This document shows positions 45,930 through 60,093 of a stretch of DNA of 60,775 nt, piece by piece. Each line of letters starts with the position of its first letter. Within the stretch, counting starts at the first letter, position 1. A program made the position numbers and the translations under genes. Source of the stretch: Dermatophilaceae bacterium (GTDB taxonomy: Bacteria > Actinomycetota > Actinomycetes > Actinomycetales > Dermatophilaceae); contig JABFXB010000019.1 in the NCBI GenBank assembly GCA_013361975.1, positions 73,731-134,505 on the forward strand, given 5' to 3'. Below the pieces are notes generated by a model. It was not told the origin of the DNA. It was given only the letters and a program-made list of their open reading frames with translations, and made no database searches.

Positions 45930-46904
45930 GTGGGCCACGAGACGCGTAGGACGCGGCGGAGCAGGGGCGGCGCTGGGGGCGGTGCTATGTCCGTCGAGTC
46001 CGTCGAGTCCGTCGAGTCCGTCGAGTCCGTCGAGTCCGTCGAGTCCGTCGAGTCCGTCGAGTCCGTCGGGGATGTCGGGGACGTCGGGGACGTCGGGGAC
46101 GTCGGGGACGTCGAGGAGCGCGGTGGGCTGTACCTTGCCCGGAGCCGGGGTTCTCTGCATCTTTTCGACCTGGACGCTGGGGCGTACCTGCGTCTGCCGG
46201 GTGAGCGCTCCAACGCGTTTCCTCACGACGTGTCCGTGCTCCGGCTGACGAGCGTGGAGCGTTGGCCACGCGTCGGTGACACGTTCTTCATCTGGGTCGA
46301 CTCGCCAGCTGAGTACGCGGTCTGGGACTACTGGCGTCAGTCGTCATCCATCGCGGCGCTGTACCGCGTCAGGCGTGCCGGTCGGCACGTGGGGCGAGCT
46401 GGCGTGGACCACGGGCGGGTCAGGGGCCGCGCGGGCGCTGCAGGTTGTGCCGCCGACGCGGCGTTCGGGCCGGGCTCCTCGGGCTCTCCGGGCTCCCCGG
46501 GGCCCCCACCCGCCCCGGGGTCCCCACCCGCCGCGGGGTCGGGGGAGCCGCAGACGCCTACAAGCGACACGTGGGGCGGAGCCCCGGCTCGGCCCGGACT
46601 GGCCGAGGTCCTCCCGGGCCTGGAGGTTGCCGTCGACGGTGTCTGGCAGGTGGTCACCTCTGCGGAGACTCCGCTCGAGGTTCGCGGGTCGCGTCTGCGG
46701 CCCAGGCCCGTGCTCGAGTGGCCGCTGACGAGCGACGAGGAGTGGGTGACCCTACTCGTCCTCTACCAGCTCGAGGAGGGGGAACTGATGCAGGCGCACC
46801 TTGAGGTCCGGCCCGCTGGTGGCTCGTCGAAACTGCGGTCGACGAGCCCGCTCACCGGGATGCGGTTGGTCGTTCCCGAGCAGCCGGCGTGGCCAACGCA
46901 TTGA
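45930..46904 (+). CDS. Unknown family B, copy 1, with (VES)8(VGD)5 repeat
   Basis: GLYLARSRGSLHLFDLDAGAYLRLPGE ... VSVLRLTSVERWPRVGDTFFIWVDSPAEYAVWDYWRQSSSIAALYRVRR; similar to 50266-50733. Confidence 0.75.
   Translation: MGHETRRTRRSRGGAGGGAMSVESVESVESVESVESVESVESVESVGDVGDVGDVGDVGDVEERGGLYLARSRGSLHLFDLDAGAYLRLPGERSNAFPHDVSVLRLTSVERWPRVGDTFFIWVDSPAEYAVWDYWRQSSSIAALYRVRRAGRHVGRAGVDHGRVRGRAGAAGCAADAAFGPGSSGSPGSPGPPPAPGSPPAAGSGEPQTPTSDTWGGAPARPGLAEVLPGLEVAVDGVWQVVTSAETPLEVRGSRLRPRPVLEWPLTSDEEWVTLLVLYQLEEGELMQAHLEVRPAGGSSKLRSTSPLTGMRLVVPEQPAWPTH
45993..46109 (+). repeat. 9-bp coding tandem repeats, (GTCGAGTCC)8 then (GTCGGGGAY)5
   Basis: Read directly; encodes (Val-Glu-Ser)8(Val-Gly-Asp)5. Confidence 0.97.
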
Positions 46905-49892: not shown

Positions 49893-50225
49893 TTAGGTGG
49901 ATGTGCGGCCAGCGGCGCGGACCGAGGCCGGTTGGCGGTCGTCCTTGACCAGCTGGGCCACTCGGCCCTTCGACAGCCCGGTCGCGGCGGCGATGCGGTC
50001 GTAGGACCAGCCGCCGCGTCGCAGCTCGCGCACCGCTTTCAGGCGCACCTTGGCGACCCTGTCGAGCTCACGGTCGATGGCCGCGAAGAGGTCACCGACC
50101 GCCTTCGTCGTGAGCACCGGGTCCGGCATGGCCGCGAGCCGCTCCGCCTCGGCCCGGATCGCCGACTGCAGCTCCGGGGAGATGGACCCACGCCGAGCCC
50201 CTGCACGGCGCGGGCGAGGAGGCAT
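49893..50225 (-). CDS. Small HTH DNA-binding protein, copy 1
   Basis: ELDRVAKVRLKAVRELRRGGWSYDRIAAATGLSKGRVAQLVKDD. Confidence 0.8.
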   Translation of the reverse strand: MPPRPRRAGARRGSISPELQSAIRAEAERLAAMPDPVLTTKAVGDLFAAIDRELDRVAKVRLKAVRELRRGGWSYDRIAAATGLSKGRVAQLVKDDRQPASVRAAGRTST

Positions 50226-50244
50226 GCCCCCATGCCACAGCGTG

Positions 50245-50265
50245 TAGAGGTCTATACTCACGGAG
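50245..50265 (+). promoter_or_regulatory. Leaderless promoter/operator box 3
   Basis: TAGAGGTCTATACTCACGGAG then GTG at 50266; -10 TATACT, 7-nt spacing. Confidence 0.7.
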
Positions 50266-50733
50266 GTGGGCTGGTACGGCGCGCCCGCGGTCCCGCTGAC
50301 GTGTACGCCGGACAGGTCGGATACCGAATCCGTCCTTCGGTTCGAGACCGAGCCCCGGGAGGGGTGGCACATGGATGACGCGGAATCCCGCACAGGTGGG
50401 CCAGGGGGGCCTGTTCACGCTCACCCCGGGGAGGTGTCCGGCGAGGTGTCCGGCGGCGGTCCCGAGGCTGAAGGCATGTGGTGGCAGGTGACGACCGAGG
50501 GCTCCGAGTACACGCTCGATCTGACGGGCGGCAGGGTGCGACGCACCCCGGTGGCTGCGCCTGGGCTCCGCGGGGATGGGGCGTGGGTGCCGCTGCGTAG
50601 CGTGGTCGACCTGCGAGTCGGGCACCCGATGGTGCTCATCCTCCTCCTCCGGGACGACGGTATCTCGACGATCCGCTACAGCTCGCGAGTCCTGCGGGTA
50701 CGACGGCTCACATCACCGCCTGAGACACCATGA
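50266..50733 (+). CDS. Unknown family B, copy 2
   Basis: MWWQVTTEGSEYTLDLTGGRVRRTPV ... WVPLRSVVDLRVGHPMVLILLLRDDGISTIRYSSRVLRVRRL. Confidence 0.7.
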   Translation: MGWYGAPAVPLTCTPDRSDTESVLRFETEPREGWHMDDAESRTGGPGGPVHAHPGEVSGEVSGGGPEAEGMWWQVTTEGSEYTLDLTGGRVRRTPVAAPGLRGDGAWVPLRSVVDLRVGHPMVLILLLRDDGISTIRYSSRVLRVRRLTSPPETP

Positions 50734-51601: not shown

Positions 51602-51940
51602 TCAGGAACTGGTGGGCCGGCTGGGGCGTGGTGAACGGGGGAGTGTGGGCGGCTGGCTGGGCCACAAGGTGACGCTGAGTGCCTGTTCGAGCTTGGCGAG
51701 CGTCACCATGTCCGGCCATGTGTTGCCGGCCAGGATGTCGTAGAGCGTGCTGCGCTCAATGCCGGCCGACTGTGCAACGTGTGAGCGCACCTGGCCCTCG
51801 AGCGCCTCATCGAGGGCCCGGGCGATCTGGACGGCGTATGCGACCACCTCGGGGGCGTCCGCTTTGAAGTCGCCGTCGGGCCATTCCCCATCCGCCAGCC
51901 AGTCGCTGGGTGACCCCGGTGGGCCCGATCGGCGCGGCAT
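51602..51940 (-). CDS. XRE-family HTH regulator
   Basis: VRSHVAQSAGIERSTLYDILAGNTWPDMVTLAKLEQALSVTLWP. Confidence 0.8.
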   Translation of the reverse strand: MPRRSGPPGSPSDWLADGEWPDGDFKADAPEVVAYAVQIARALDEALEGQVRSHVAQSAGIERSTLYDILAGNTWPDMVTLAKLEQALSVTLWPSQPPTLPRSPRPSRPTSS

Positions 51941-52120: not shown

Positions 52121-52144
52121 AAGTGTAGGTAAAAACCTACACTT
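52121..52144. promoter_or_regulatory. Perfect palindrome/operator upstream of recombinase-like genes
   Basis: AAGTGTAGGT AAAA ACCTACACTT; contains -10-like TACACT 6 nt before ATG 52150. Confidence 0.75.
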
Positions 52145-52294
52145 GGGAGATGCAGGACTCGCCTCGAGCAACAGTGCGCCCCGTCAGCACAAGCCGATCC
52201 TTCGGCCAGCTGGTCGCCCGGTCCTGGGCCCTCCTCGCTTCACCGTCGACCCATCAGAAGCCGGCCGCCCGGCCGGCACGACCGAGGAAGAACC

Positions 52295-53785
52295 ATGACA
52301 ACGACAACCGCCAACCGCGCACACCAGGCCGCGTTCGCTAGCCCGGTCAGCCCCCTCGCATTCCGAGCAACGGCCCTCGTCGTCGTCCGCGAGTCCGACG
52401 AGCACCAAGTCGTCTTCTTCGACGGAATGCGCGAGCAGACATACCAGATGATCCACATCCCCGAGATCGACGCGGTCCGCGCTCTCGGCCTCAGCCCGAT
52501 GTACGCCAAGGACACCATCGACGTCACGACACACGAGCCGGACGGACGCGCCCGAGTCGTCACCATCAAAATCGAGCGCATCCAAGAGGGGGCCACCAAG
52601 GCCCTGCTGTTCGAGTTCGGCGGCTACTGGCACCTGTGGTCCATGGCGTCCGCCACCCGCCTGAGCGACTCCCGCGAGAACGAGTTCACGACGATCCTGA
52701 CGGACACCATCCGACGTCTGTGCCCCCACACGATCTACGTCGCAAACATCGGCCGCCTCGTCCGCTCGACCAGCCAGCAGGCCAAGATCCAGGACGCCCT
52801 CATCGACCGTGTCGACCGGATCGTCACCAAGCAGGTCGAGTTCAAGTTCGACGGCGCCAACCGCCCCTTCGGCCTCATGATGTTCATGATGATGGCGATC
52901 TCAGCCTCCATGGAACGAGACTGGATCGTGCAGCGCACCGCAGCCGGACGCGTCGCCCAGTGGCGGCGAGACGCATGGCCCTTCGGCGCGGAGGCCGTCC
53001 CCTACGGGTACCGCTTCGGCAAGGGGCGCCGGGTCGTCATCGACCCGGAACAGCGCGAGCTCATCCGCAACATGCTGAACATCCTCGCCATGGAGCTGCC
53101 GCCCGCCGAGCGCGTCCGCCGCCTCGGCGAAGCCGGGCTGATGAGCAAGAAGGTCATCAAGCGCTTCGGCCAGCGCGTCTCCGTGGACGGGCTCTCCCGA
53201 CCCGAAGTGCTCGTCGGGCGCCTCTACGCACTGACCCCGGTCTGGACCCGGGGCGAGTTCCTCCACCGGACCACGAACCCGTTCCATGACGCCCAAGAAG
53301 TCGCCGGCGTTCCCGTCATGCGCGCCTCTGCCGATGACCCGGGCGAGCTGCAGTTGCTCTACCGGCTCGACCTGCCCGACGGGGGCTGGGCCGACGAGGA
53401 GGTCCTGCGCATGGTGGAGGAGCAGGCCGTGCTCAACCATGCCAGTGTCGCGGCCGGGCGCTCAGCGCGCCGCCCGCTGTCCGTCCACGTCCGTACCGCC
53501 AGCGGGGCGCCGCACCTGCACGAGGACCTGTTCGGCAACTCGCACCTGCACGGCAAGGACGTCGCGACGAAGCGGCGCCGGGCCGGCGCCTACGCCAAGC
53601 GTCTCGTCGCCGCCCTGGGCGGACGCAGCTGGGGCGATGACGCCTACCGCTACGAGATGCGCGTCCACGGCGATCACTACAACGTGCTCCGTTGGCCGAC
53701 GGGCACCCTGCCCCAAGGCAGCACGCACATCGGGTCGGCCGTGCCGCTGTCCCTGCGCAGCCAGTCCCGCGCCGAGGAGCGATGA
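52295..53785 (+). CDS. Divergent serine-recombinase-like protein (catalytic plus recombinase domain)
   Basis: SDSRENEFTTILTDTIRRL...IYVANIGRLVRSTSQQ, MMAISASMERDWIVQRTAAGRVAQWRRDAWPFGAEAVPYGYRFGKG. Confidence 0.7.
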   Translation: MTTTTANRAHQAAFASPVSPLAFRATALVVVRESDEHQVVFFDGMREQTYQMIHIPEIDAVRALGLSPMYAKDTIDVTTHEPDGRARVVTIKIERIQEGATKALLFEFGGYWHLWSMASATRLSDSRENEFTTILTDTIRRLCPHTIYVANIGRLVRSTSQQAKIQDALIDRVDRIVTKQVEFKFDGANRPFGLMMFMMMAISASMERDWIVQRTAAGRVAQWRRDAWPFGAEAVPYGYRFGKGRRVVIDPEQRELIRNMLNILAMELPPAERVRRLGEAGLMSKKVIKRFGQRVSVDGLSRPEVLVGRLYALTPVWTRGEFLHRTTNPFHDAQEVAGVPVMRASADDPGELQLLYRLDLPDGGWADEEVLRMVEEQAVLNHASVAAGRSARRPLSVHVRTASGAPHLHEDLFGNSHLHGKDVATKRRRAGAYAKRLVAALGGRSWGDDAYRYEMRVHGDHYNVLRWPTGTLPQGSTHIGSAVPLSLRSQSRAEER

Positions 53786-55458
53786 TGACCGCCAGCCGGC
53801 TGGCCGCACCGACCGCCCTTGAGCCCGTGCTCCTCCCGGCGTCATCCGTCCGGAGCCGAAGAGTGCACGCGGGCGGCGGCGCAGAAGGTGGATCAGGCGG
53901 GGAGAATGAAGATGCCCCGCTGCCCACGGTCCACTCCGGCACCAAGGTCGCCTCGTTCACGAAGAAGTCGCTCATGACGGGCATGCTGCAGGCGCTCATC
54001 AGCGCGTGCCGCTCGGGCGTGCCCCTCAGCATCCTGCAGGGCACCGTCGAGGCCAACCCGGCTGGGACGAGCCTCTACTCCACACCGGCCCACCATCGGG
54101 CCGAGCTGCTCCGGCTCCAGCTCGCCGACGCCGAACGCCGCATCAAGGTGGCCGTCCACATGGTCATGTCCGCCATGAATGAGGGGCAGCTGGCCGAGTA
54201 CCGGGATCAGGAGAACCAGGCGCGTGAGGACGCCGAGCACGTGCAGCAGCAGCTCGCGTCGCTCGAAGCGCACGCCGAGGCGCCGAGCGAGGTTCCCGCG
54301 CAGGTCCCGACCCTGCTGCGCACCCTCGAGCTCGCGTTCCAACAGCTGAACAGCAGCGAGCTCGTGACCCAGGAGCAGTTCCAGGCGCTCAGGACGGTCA
54401 TGCCCCACTTCATCCTGCGTGAGAGCCCAGGTGGCGGATGGGAGGCGGAGGCCAGCCTGCGCCTGCCCACCCCCGAGGGAGCCGTCGTCGAGATCGGTCC
54501 CGTCCGGTGGCCGGTCGGGGGTCGAGCCCGCAGCACGAGCACGCGCGTGTCGGACCGCTCGCGCAACGCCGTTCCGGTCGAGCTGATCCAGGAGGCCGGG
54601 CTCCTCGGCGGGGCCGCGCTGTACTCGCTGCGCGGCAGCCTGCTCGCCGAGACCCCGTGGGTCGTGCTGAACGGGCTGACTGGCCACCCGTTTCCCGAGT
54701 GGGTCGGCCCGCAGTGGCGCGAGAAGCCCCTCGTCGATTGGCTCACCCGCACGTACCGTTCGCCGGACCTGATCGACCGGCGCTACATCAGGTACAGCGT
54801 GAAACGCCAGTTCCTGCTGCACGCATGCCCCGACGAGGGCGACCTCTGCCTGACCGAGCTCCGACGGCTCGCACCGGTGCGCGACCCGGCCTCATGGACG
54901 ACGCTGGCGCAGACCATCCCACCGGGGCGAGGGGACCGCCGCACGGAGAAGGCGCCGAGCCTGACCGTGTCGCACCTCCCATGTCCAGACGCGCTCGGTG
55001 AACGCGCCCGGCTCGTGCCGCACTTCAGACCTCTTCAGTGCCAGTGCGGCCGGCAGATCCGCTCCGTGGTCCTCGTCCCCGAGGTGCCCCGCGGCCTCGT
55101 GTGCGCATGCGGACGGATGCCCGACGCGAACCAGTACGGCATGCCGGACGACGTCCGGCTCCCAGCGGAGTACGTGCAGGTCCTGACGATGTCCCGGCAG
55201 GCGTGCGAGATGGAACTGCGCTACGAGCTCGACCGGCACCCGTACACGCCCACGCCGCAGGCTCGGGAGATCATGGACCTGCCCATCTGGCGGCCCGGGG
55301 CGGAGCTCACCCTGGCCGATGTGAAGACCGCCTGCCGGCCGCACATGCTGCTGCACATCCTCCACCGGATGCAGGCCTACGGCCTCATCGAACGTCGGCC
55401 GGACACCAGAGACGCCTGGGTGGTGCGTGACGAGCCCGAGCCCTTGCGAACCCCGTGA
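53782..55458 (+). CDS. Partner protein with coiled coil and CxC...CxC zinc-ribbon-like segment
   Basis: ATG overlaps the previous stop; RLQLADAERRIKVAVHMVMSAMNEGQLAEYRDQENQAREDAEHVQQQLASLEAHAE; CQCGRQIRSVVLVPEVPRGLVCACGR. Confidence 0.75.
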   Translation: MMTASRLAAPTALEPVLLPASSVRSRRVHAGGGAEGGSGGENEDAPLPTVHSGTKVASFTKKSLMTGMLQALISACRSGVPLSILQGTVEANPAGTSLYSTPAHHRAELLRLQLADAERRIKVAVHMVMSAMNEGQLAEYRDQENQAREDAEHVQQQLASLEAHAEAPSEVPAQVPTLLRTLELAFQQLNSSELVTQEQFQALRTVMPHFILRESPGGGWEAEASLRLPTPEGAVVEIGPVRWPVGGRARSTSTRVSDRSRNAVPVELIQEAGLLGGAALYSLRGSLLAETPWVVLNGLTGHPFPEWVGPQWREKPLVDWLTRTYRSPDLIDRRYIRYSVKRQFLLHACPDEGDLCLTELRRLAPVRDPASWTTLAQTIPPGRGDRRTEKAPSLTVSHLPCPDALGERARLVPHFRPLQCQCGRQIRSVVLVPEVPRGLVCACGRMPDANQYGMPDDVRLPAEYVQVLTMSRQACEMELRYELDRHPYTPTPQAREIMDLPIWRPGAELTLADVKTACRPHMLLHILHRMQAYGLIERRPDTRDAWVVRDEPEPLRTP

Positions 55459-56264
55459 CTCTGCGAGACGGCACGTCGCGCCACCACGGCCTCGTCACCC
55501 GGGCCGCGAACTGACCCTCGGCCGCCGGCAGGGGCAGGGGACCCCCTGCGTCCCTGCCGGCGGCCGCGACGGTGCCGCTCGATGGTGCGGGTCCCGCTGC
55601 GAGACAACGACACTGCGACGTCGCCGCTAGGGCGTCCAGCCGTCCAGCGGGTTCTCCCGGAGTCGGCCGAAGGGATGTCGCTGACCGGACACCGAGGACG
55701 GGGCAGAGGCCCCAGCGGCTGAACCCTCATGACAGGTCGTCGCCGGTCTGCACGGTCTCCTGCATGACCACACCGCAGAGCACACCCACACGGCAGGGAC
55801 GAACACGAGAGAACCACGAGCAGGACGTGACCCGCGAGCTCACACCGCAGGCGAGAGACGACGTGCACGTGTACCGCTGCCCCGAGCTGGCAGATCGGCT
55901 TGCCGAATGGTCGAACCGCACGTCGCCCGCCACGCCCGACCCCGCCGTCGACCTCACCGTGACGTGGGTGCGGATCGCCCCCAGGCACTGACGTCGCCAG
56001 AGCCGCGGAGACCCCACCCCGGGGCGGCCGGGTCCAGGCGGCCAACGCACAGCTTGCCGGACATCGGCGCTGACACACCACAGCGCCGGCAGGGGCGGAA
56101 GATCTCACCTGAGACGCCGCAGGTCTGACCAACCGCGTCGCGGCGTCCGGGGGCGGCGCCAACGTGCGAAGAACGGCTGACTCTTGGGCCGACGCACAGC
56201 GCCGTCACCCGGCACCGGCATTCGTGCCTGCCGACAGCGCACGAGCCGTAGGCCCCCACTGCGG

Positions 56265-56735
56265 TTACGGGTTCCCGGGTGACGCGGACGACCCGGGTGA
56301 CCCGGGCGGACGCGGGCGGACCAGGTCCGGGCCGCACGGGAGGGCAGCCCCGGCGTCTCTCACGAGCTGAGCCACTCGCGCCTTGGACAGGCCGCTGGCC
56401 CGGGCAATCCGGTCGTACGACCAGCCTTCGTCGCGCAGGGTGCTCAGGGCCCGGAGGCGAACGTCGGCGACCCGCTCGAGCTCGCCGAGCAGAACGGCGA
56501 AGAAGTCACCCACCTGTCGTGTCACGGTCAGGGGGTCGCCGCTCGACGCGAGGTGCGCAGCCTCCATCTGGACGAACTCACGGAGTCGCTCACGGTGGGT
56601 CGCGAGAACCGCTGGCCGGTGACGCGGCTCGCCGGCGGGCGCGTCTGCCGCACGAGCCTCGCGGGAGTCAGCATGCGCGGGACGATCGCATCCGCGGGCA
56701 CTGCCGCGCCTCCCGCCACCCGACAGCTCACCCAT
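56265..56735 (-). CDS. Small HTH DNA-binding protein, copy 2
   Basis: ELERVADVRLRALSTLRDEGWSYDRIARASGLSKARVAQLVRDA; paralog of 49893-50225. Confidence 0.75.
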   Translation of the reverse strand: MGELSGGGRRGSARGCDRPAHADSREARAADAPAGEPRHRPAVLATHRERLREFVQMEAAHLASSGDPLTVTRQVGDFFAVLLGELERVADVRLRALSTLRDEGWSYDRIARASGLSKARVAQLVRDAGAALPCGPDLVRPRPPGSPGSSASPGNP

Positions 56736-56973: not shown

Positions 56974-58320
56974 TCACAGGGCAGCGATGACCGACTCGAG
57001 GTGCTCGCGCCCGCTGCGGTAGTAGCGCTCGTTGACGACGTTCGTGTCCTCCCAGCCGCCCACCGCCGTGAGCTGGCCCGGCTGCAGGTTATGCACGTCG
57101 ACGCAGGTCCGGGCGAAACGATGCCTCATGGAGTGCCACACGAGGTCGAACTGCACGCACTCCCGCGAGACCCTCTCGTAGCGGCGGGTGTCGCTGTTCC
57201 ACTCGTCGCACGTCTCGACCCACGTCTGCGTGGGCCACCCGGCTGCGAGCGCCGCCGGCGTGAAGTACTGCTCATGGAACGGGCTGTGGTGGAACATCCC
57301 GCCCCGCGGCGCCGGGAAGAGCAGAGCCTCCGGGTTGGTCCCGGCGGCCTGTTCGACCCGGGCTTGCTCGCATCGCGCGCGAAGCTCCTTCAGGAGCTTG
57401 TAGCCGGTGATGGAGCGCTTGTGCGCGACGGTGCGGCGGGTCTTCTCACCCTTGGGGAGCTTGCGCCGGTTGTCGCCCTCGCGGACGCTGGCGGAGGCGT
57501 CGATCTGCCAGTTGATCGCGATCACTGCTCCTCGCTTGACGAAGGTGACGTCGTCGGCGGTCAGCTGGAAGAGCTCGCCCCATCGGGGCCCGGCGTCGCA
57601 CGCCAGCTCGACCGCGAGACGTCCCCACGCCGGGAAGATCTTGTCGAACTCCGTCGCCAGCGCCACGACGCGGGCGATGCTCGGAGCGTCCTCGTCCCGG
57701 ATGAAGTTCGGGTTCTCGCTGACATCGCGGGCGCGGCTGGCGCGCTTGGGAGCGGCGGTACCTTTCAGGGCGGGAACGACACGGACTGCTCCGGGGGGCA
57801 GCATCTCGGCCTGCTCTGCAGTGAAGTACTTGTGACGGTGACCCCAGATCAGCAGGCCTCGTAGCGCGGACGTGTTGTGGTCGACGCTGTTTCGGGTGCC
57901 GCCCTGGGAGCGCAGGATGTCAGCAAGGTCGCGGTCCAGCTGCATCGCCTGCACGTGTTCGCGGCCCCGGATCATCCGGTTGAGACGTCGTTGCACCTGG
58001 GTGAGGTGGTTGCCGCTCCACGGGGCGCCTTCTTCGCGCTGGTTCTGGTCGTCGGCGTTGATGTACTCCGTGACGAGGTCTCGCAGGGGCGTGAGCCCGC
58101 GCGGACCCATGGCGCGGGCAAGGCTCGCGTCGATCGGAGCAGCTTTGCTCATCGCGCCGTCAAGCGTCCGGCCGCCGCTCGTGCCACCGCGCCTGCCGTC
58201 CGGCTTGCGCCAGGTGAGTCGGTAGTAGGGGTCGGAGCCTGCGGGCGCGAGGACGCTCACGCGTCCGACGTATGCGACCGGGTCGTTCCTGACCAAGGTG
58301 GTCGTGGTCCGGGCGGTCAT
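56974..58320 (-). CDS. Tyrosine recombinase/integrase
   Basis: AVELACDAGPRWGELFQLTADDV ... WHSMRHRFARTCVDVHNLQPGQLTAVGGWEDTNVVNERYYRSGREH. Confidence 0.9.
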   Translation of the reverse strand: MTARTTTTLVRNDPVAYVGRVSVLAPAGSDPYYRLTWRKPDGRRGGTSGGRTLDGAMSKAAPIDASLARAMGPRGLTPLRDLVTEYINADDQNQREEGAPWSGNHLTQVQRRLNRMIRGREHVQAMQLDRDLADILRSQGGTRNSVDHNTSALRGLLIWGHRHKYFTAEQAEMLPPGAVRVVPALKGTAAPKRASRARDVSENPNFIRDEDAPSIARVVALATEFDKIFPAWGRLAVELACDAGPRWGELFQLTADDVTFVKRGAVIAINWQIDASASVREGDNRRKLPKGEKTRRTVAHKRSITGYKLLKELRARCEQARVEQAAGTNPEALLFPAPRGGMFHHSPFHEQYFTPAALAAGWPTQTWVETCDEWNSDTRRYERVSRECVQFDLVWHSMRHRFARTCVDVHNLQPGQLTAVGGWEDTNVVNERYYRSGREHLESVIAAL

Positions 58321-58730
58321 CGCGACACGCTCCTTCCGGCGCGGGGCGAGTAGTCCTTGATGGGGCGGGGCAGCGGCATGCTCTCGACATCGGCCGAAGG
58401 CGTCGCCGGCACGGCCGTCGTGCCGGTCCCGGTGCCGGTGCCGGTGCCGGTGCCGGTCACGGTGTCGCCTTCGGTGTGATGGCCGTTGGCTGGCGTCGAA
58501 GACGCCTCGCCCTGCTGGGTGCGGGTCCGACGAGGCAGGCTGCGGACCCAGTCGAGGATTTCCTGACGGTCCCAGAGGTGGCGTGCCCCGAGGATGAACG
58601 GTGCCGGGAAGGCATCCTGGTAGGTGTACTCGCGGGCGCGGTCGACGCTCACGTGCAGGAGTCGGGCGACATGCTCGATCGTGTAGATCGGGTCGGCGAT
58701 GTCGGGCTGGACGGTGTCATGGGTTGATGT
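58317..58730 (-). CDS. Excisionase/AlpA-like HTH protein
   Basis: DPIYTIEHVARLLHVSVDRAREYTYQDAFPAPFILGARHLWDRQEILDWVRSLP; overlaps integrase start; contains a (GT)n tract. Confidence 0.8.
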   Translation of the reverse strand, partial: TSTHDTVQPDIADPIYTIEHVARLLHVSVDRAREYTYQDAFPAPFILGARHLWDRQEILDWVRSLPRRTRTQQGEASSTPANGHHTEGDTVTGTGTGTGTGTGTTAVPATPSADVESMPLPRPIKDYSPRAGRSVSR

Positions 58731-58911
58731 CATGACTACGTCCGTCCGGACCGGCGGGATGAGCGCAGTCAGGTGCCGAGGCACATCCGTGTGACGTGGG
58801 TCACACTCGCCGGCAACGCCAATCTCATGCGGTGGCTGTCGCGGGTGCGCGCCTAGCGGGGCCCTTGCCGGGGCTTCGAGCGTGTGCGGCGATCGGTTCG
58901 CGCATCCTCAA

Positions 58912-59389: not shown

Positions 59390-60093
59390 TGTCGCTTCCT
59401 CCCGGGTACGGCGAGACACCGGTTCCCGGAGACGAGCTTCAGTGGTTGCTTCCTGAGGTGCGTGAGGTGCTCGGCGAACCGGTGCTCAAGGCTGCCGTCT
59501 ACGACCTCGAACAGGCGGAGCAGGAGGCCGCCGCCGTCGAGCTGCTCACCGTGATCCTCGTGGGCGTCGACGCCGTGACGGAGTCAGGAAACTACCGCCT
59601 CGACGACACGTATACCGTCCGAGGGGCTCTCGAGGTGGCCGAGCTGCTCACCGACCACTTCCTCCGTGCTTTGCACCACCGGCTCTTCGAGCGCATCTGG
59701 GCGTGGGCGGGGACCTACCGCGCCGTCGAGCTGAACATCGGCGTGCCGCCCCCCATGGTCGCCGTCGACATCCGTGCGTCACTCGAGTCGCTGCGCTACC
59801 GCTGGGAGCACACCTCGGACTGGACCGGACGCCAGCTCGGGATCGCCGCGCATGCAGAGCTGGTGCGTATCCACCCGTTCACCGACGGCAACGGCCGCAC
59901 CACCCGGCTGCTGGCTGACCTGGTGTTCGCTGCCGCCCAGCAGGCCCACCTCGCGCTGACGGAGGAGCCGGTGTGGGAGTACGACTGGGACCTGGACAAG
60001 GCTGACTACATCCGTCTGCTGCGCGAGTACGACCGACATCGCAACCCGAGCGATCTCGCAGCCTTCGTCCCGGTCGTCCGGCTGGGGGAGTAG
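59389..60093 (+). CDS. Fic/DOC domain protein
   Basis: HAELVRIHPFTDGNGRTTRLLADLVF (HPFxDGNGRxxR). Confidence 0.92.
   Translation: MSLPPGYGETPVPGDELQWLLPEVREVLGEPVLKAAVYDLEQAEQEAAAVELLTVILVGVDAVTESGNYRLDDTYTVRGALEVAELLTDHFLRALHHRLFERIWAWAGTYRAVELNIGVPPPMVAVDIRASLESLRYRWEHTSDWTGRQLGIAAHAELVRIHPFTDGNGRTTRLLADLVFAAAQQAHLALTEEPVWEYDWDLDKADYIRLLREYDRHRNPSDLAAFVPVVRLGE

Follow-up and report, generated by a model that had tools for sequence, protein, structure and literature searches.

Comparison with described serine recombinases

Large serine recombinases, such as Bxb1, phiC31, A118/LI and SPbeta, share a catalytic domain with the equivalents of S10, R8, R68 and R71, a long E helix, a recombinase domain, and a coiled coil inserted in a zinc-type domain. 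The catalytic fold is common to the Tn3/gamma-delta resolvases and the DNA invertases, which comprise ~180–200 residues with a simple helix-turn-helix. CcrA and CcrB of SCC elements are encoded by two adjacent genes, and each of them is a complete recombinase. In known integrases, the half of the chain containing the coiled coil decides what DNA sites can be joined to each other. The zinc domain of LI integrase begins with a three-strand ribbon with four cysteines (β10–12), continues through helix J, the coiled coil and helix M, and ends in a hairpin (β13–14) that extends the sheet; the enzyme without its coiled coil is promiscuous in intramolecular assays and its integration is abolished (PMC3783163). 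Arginines R8, R68 and R71 are positioned on the scissile phosphate (PMC4499144). No natural split serine integrase was found in a literature search.

The window analysed here, a stretch of 60,775 nucleotides from a metagenome-assembled genome (MAG), contains two adjacent genes on the forward strand, ORF1 (52295–53785, 496 aa) and ORF2 (53782–55458, 558 aa, with the start at 53782 or 53785), that together resemble one large serine recombinase. They share with such enzymes the catalytic domain with its S10, R8, R68 and R71 equivalents, the long E helix and the recombinase domain, and have a predicted coiled coil in an apparently corresponding place, but differ from them in being two genes, in the lack of cysteines in the zinc-type domain, and in the absence of R45. 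The family to which they belong also adds a four-strand β insert in the catalytic domain (residues 74–117 of ORF1), as well as a C-terminal zinc ribbon and a winged helix, with fused members reaching ~1,050 aa. On balance, we favour the reading that this is a divergent enzyme similar to large serine recombinases, present here as two translationally coupled subunits that would assemble in trans and work in the manner of a serine integrase. If a natural system does carry its coiled-coil module on a chain of its own, directionality could be studied and tuned by dosage, and the family as a whole tests the dispensability of R45 in the active site of serine recombinases and of the cysteines in their zinc domain.

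The putative catalytic protein and its active site

ORF1 holds a serine recombinase catalytic domain, a long E helix, a recombinase domain, and a Cys-less β-ribbon, the remnant of the zinc-type domain. The original prediction of a resolvase-like core followed by PYGY as in large serine recombinases agrees with the results of Pfam, PHROG, profile comparison and Foldseek, and the motifs on which it was based (IGRLVRS, ISASMERDWIVQRTAAGR, PYGY and VRESDEHQ) are all present in the sequence. The Resolvase family (PF00239) matches ORF1 with an E value of 5e-7 (30.3 bits, cut-off 23.3), and phrog_95, an integrase, matches it with an E value of 8e-13, whereas the score for XisF (NF041201 in NCBIfam) is 12.9 bits, far under the equivalog cut-off of 375. 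With a seven-row family profile as the query, the best match in the PDB is an integrase of 500 residues of the Bxb1 type (E 8e-9), with an alignment that starts at the R-L-x-R-S motif, passes P-x-G-Y and extends into the recombinase domain. The AlphaFold2 model of ORF1 is confident over residues 23–382, and its three significant Foldseek matches in the PDB are all serine integrase–att complexes (E 1.2e-5 to 6e-5). When the family is aligned with 16 canonical large serine recombinases (hhalign), residues 147–402 of ORF1 are covered with a probability of 99.4 and an E value of 3e-21. In its last stretch, this alignment reaches the beginning of the zinc-type domain, in which VRTASG takes the place of the usual CxxC.

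Ser34 had been put forward as a possible catalytic serine, and it indeed occupies the position of the nucleophile. Residues R32-E33-S34 (52388–52396, forward strand) include the equivalents of R8 and of the catalytic S10 of Tn3/gamma-delta resolvase, are invariant in all seven N termini available, and lie at the end of β1 in the AlphaFold2 model. Alignment with canonical recombinases identifies Arg154 and Arg157 (52754–52765, forward strand) as the equivalents of R68 and R71, and both are invariant in all six family sequences that cover them. R45 is an arginine in 15 of the 15 canonical recombinases covering that position and is absent from all family members. The canonical motif consisting of an acidic residue followed by R-P-x-L becomes [E/D/T]-N-x-[F/W/Y] in all seven family members, with the Asn invariant, and one member is missing the E-R of the E helix.

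The zinc-type domain is the second region of divergence. A CxxC before the coiled coil is present in 13 of 16 canonical sequences, the remaining three being short fragments, and in none of the family members; the canonical position of the zinc ribbon is occupied in all of them by a Cys-less β-ribbon, located on the ORF1 side. The prediction had correctly described ORF1 as devoid of a Cys zinc ribbon and as containing a His-rich segment, PHLHEDLFGNSHLHGKD, but a role of this segment as a replacement metal site is rejected, as the relatives do not conserve it. Since the zinc cysteines and R45 were sought and are lacking, the family is not filed as a standard large serine recombinase. It is a genuine divergent branch near these enzymes and would most likely work like one of them.

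The coiled-coil protein

No profile library searched (Pfam, NCBIfam, PHROG) contains a family matching ORF2, and no resolvase domain was found in it. The order of elements is a helix (residues 61–78), a coiled-coil hairpin, helices at 175–206, strands at 209–229 forming a β-hairpin, an extra helical region, the ribbon, and a tail resembling a winged helix. The coiled-coil hairpin (54082–54270, forward strand, residues 101–163) is composed of helices 101–129 and 134–163, with pLDDT mostly 73–89, and corresponds in position and order to the coiled coil of the fused relatives, but is located on a separate chain here, in a model of low overall confidence (pLDDT 53). In a Foldseek search with this low-confidence model, phiC31 integrase is the second match (probability 0.96), at a non-significant E value of 0.15. 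The C-terminal zinc ribbon, CQC-x18-CAC (55039–55110, forward strand, residues 420–443), has CxxC pairs in most relatives.

As claimed, a long coiled coil is predicted and the CxC-x18-CxC motif is present. Their proposed identity with the C-terminal features of a single large integrase stands insofar as ORF2 is the C-terminal half of its single-chain relatives, but not in regard to the ribbon. The CxC ribbon does not represent the canonical one moved elsewhere, because the canonical position is filled by the Cys-less β-ribbon of ORF1, making the C-terminal ribbon an extra element. Together with the winged helix, this CxC/CxxC ribbon is an addition specific to the family that follows the coiled coil near the C terminus.

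Fused relatives and their distribution

A search of about 1,800 genomes and of GTDB contigs yielded five more members of the family and one partial sequence. The nearest relative, L012, is a fused protein encoded in the complete 3.5-Mb genome G431, which aligns first with ORF1 (37% identity, E 2e-79) and then, in the same order, with ORF2 (28%, E 2e-26). The other members come from an Actinomycetes MAG (L004), from G687 (L013), and from G1024, where one gene is cut by a contig end (L037) and another is spread over two overlapping contigs (L038 and L039); the N-terminal piece is from G827 (L050). Four of these pieces (L037, L038, L039 and L050) lie at contig ends, as if assemblies tended to break inside the gene. 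Identities within the family range from 19 to 37%, and in the tree its members form a monophyletic clade with a local support of 0.999 and a long stem.

In every relative long enough to tell, the halves similar to ORF1 and ORF2 form a single chain, and therefore the two proteins are the halves of one protein placed on two genes. The conserved two-gene locus envisaged earlier was not encountered; the split occurs only here, and no free-standing ORF2 was present in the four relative genomes searched. Neither ORF1 nor ORF2 had a tblastn match in phages or plasmids (E 0.01), the fused relatives from G431 and G1024 had none in plasmids (E 0.001), and scans of IMG/VR gave no match. The 188 genomes of the same taxonomic family gave weak matches alone, the best of which (L002) is an ordinary integrase; further weak genome matches (L003 and L006–L010) were not counted as members. 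The sparse, scattered distribution fits mobile elements, as expected.

The upstream palindrome and the neighbouring XRE gene

The perfect 10-bp palindrome predicted upstream of ORF1 is located at positions 52121–52144, where two arms flank a 4-nt centre (AAGTGTAGGT-AAAA-ACCTACACTT) and a possible −10 element, TACACT, is overlapped. Its expectation by chance, allowing up to three mismatches, is 0.00, and the region is identical at 27 of 31 positions to the corresponding upstream site of the G431 gene. The sequence GTAGGTNNNAACCTACACTTGGG occurs once in the complete 3.5-Mb G431 genome and, in the source genome, solely at the palindrome. Divergently from ORF1 lies a gene for an XRE-like helix-turn-helix protein of 112 aa (51602–51940, reverse strand; HTH_3 with E 9e-5, marginally below the cut-off), which is 56% identical over 97 residues (E 5e-34) to the product of the gene directly downstream of the G431 recombinase gene (L012:11728–12036).

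With a −10-like element inside the palindrome and a conserved XRE neighbour, an operator is its most likely role. The XRE protein would then probably repress the operon from this site. That the palindrome instead serves as the recombinase's own crossover site, similar to res or att, seems to us fairly unlikely. A dyad upstream of the gene is indeed found in the res and regulatory regions of Tn3/gamma-delta resolvases and invertases, and the conservation of this one between two distant loci, as well as its uniqueness in a complete genome, would agree with such a function. An integrated att site, however, combines host and element sequence, so that a full palindrome would hardly persist in two unrelated insertions, and the overlap with a plausible promoter next to a repressor-like gene speaks for the operator. 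A second copy, considered as the other att site, was absent from the contig, the source genome and the complete G431 genome.

A possible leader ORF of 63 aa (52150–52341, forward strand) starts just past the palindrome and overlaps ORF1; its similarity to a 67-aa counterpart in G431 is marginal (E 0.004–0.005). After the stop codon of ORF2, a perfect inverted repeat of 15 bp (55519–55566, forward strand) with a folding z-score of −5.4 is likely to be the transcription terminator.

The junction between the two genes

The predicted ATGATGA overlap is borne out by the sequence. ORF2 lies in the −1 frame, with its ATG at 53782 or 53785, and the stop codon TGA of ORF1 at 53783–53785 is the second of two in tandem. 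ORF1 stops after the β-ribbon of the zinc-type domain, and ORF2 starts with a helix and the coiled coil, in the same order as in LI integrase. As mapped from a modest-quality model (pLDDT 53), the break between the genes would accordingly appear to fall within the domain to which the coiled coil belongs in canonical integrases.

The source MAG is 75% complete and consists of 564 contigs, and a single indel between about 53680 and 53785 could in principle have broken a fused gene. We regard it as unlikely that a single fused recombinase gene has been split here by a frameshift, through either an assembly error or a recent inactivating mutation. Such a frameshift would be in keeping with the fused state of all relatives long enough to tell and with a split known from a MAG assembly, and the codon bias is weak at the start of ORF2: a GC3 plot follows the frame of ORF1, is uninformative for ~130 nt, and only then follows the frame of ORF2, with no bias across its first ~45 codons. 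Against it, the bias in the ORF1 frame continues to that gene's own stop, the tandem TGA TGA is accompanied by a good Shine–Dalgarno sequence (GAGGAG, 5 nt ahead of the second ATG), and both reading frames are otherwise intact, with the junction placed in a linker. The split, seen in one MAG, is probably real, and the Shine–Dalgarno sequence and the overlap support translational coupling.

A possible mechanism and the remaining alternatives

For two coupled subunits acting as one recombinase, the following division of labour can be proposed. ORF1 would perform catalysis, with Ser34 attacking the scissile phosphate and Arg32, Arg154 and Arg157 binding it, and would also provide most of the DNA binding through the recombinase domain and the Cys-less β-ribbon. 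From the zinc-type domain, ORF2 would supply helices J and M, with the coiled coil between them, and the last β-hairpin; it would also provide the new zinc ribbon and the winged helix. In known integrases this hairpin completes a sheet, the other strands of which correspond to the part found in ORF1, and the two proteins would therefore come together to complete a single domain in trans. Synapsis via the coiled coils would be followed by double-strand cleavage, subunit rotation and ligation, by which a genomic island would be moved or rearranged. It is a tentative extension of this scheme that the pair is a naturally split serine integrase in which the C-terminal subunit with the coiled coil would govern synapsis and directionality, and in which its ratio to the catalytic subunit could switch the enzyme between modes.

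A loss of recombinase activity, leaving a protein with a DNA-binding or regulatory role, such as one within a defence or plasmid-maintenance island, appears quite improbable. It would account for the loss of R45 in all members and of the E-R of the E helix in one of them, and for the company that the genes keep, as the G431 member lies beside a helicase and a type IIG enzyme and that of G1024 near apparent cas3/cse1 genes (by eye). Yet invariance of the nucleophile and the three phosphate-binding arginines at such low identities is hard to explain without catalysis, and PADLOC gave no match for the recombinase protein itself. Two complete serine recombinases, as in the CcrA/CcrB pair with its adjacent genes, can practically be dismissed, as ORF2 lacks a catalytic domain and matches the single-chain relatives in their C-terminal half.

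Genomic setting

The window makes up the last part of a 134.5-kb contig that carries metal-resistance genes and is partly similar to actinobacterial plasmid cargo; positions 1–44000 contain a large copper, cadmium and arsenic resistance cargo. The contigs of this MAG have an average length of 5.8 kb, and this one possibly represents a plasmid or an island. No terminal overlap that would suggest circularity was detected in the contig, nor were att sites, an empty site or an excised form of the element found. In G431, the recombinase gene lies within an island of lower GC content, roughly 28 kb in length, with restriction-type genes; an HKD/PLD-SNF2 helicase and a type IIG restriction-methyltransferase (L012:12230–18252) adjoin it.

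Directly downstream of the cassette, on the reverse strand, are genes for a tyrosine integrase-like protein, with no match among PLSDB plasmids, and for an excisionase-like HTH_17 protein (56974–58784). The cassette is flanked by paralogous HTH proteins (49893–50393 and 56265–56735, both on the reverse strand) that are 57% identical over 77 residues. Short in-frame tandem repeats at the start of another ORF (45985–46065) encode SVESVES...GDVGDV. A Fic/DOC protein is encoded at 59467–60093 (forward strand), and its possible small upstream partner resembles, by eye, a 47-aa ORF of the G431 island.
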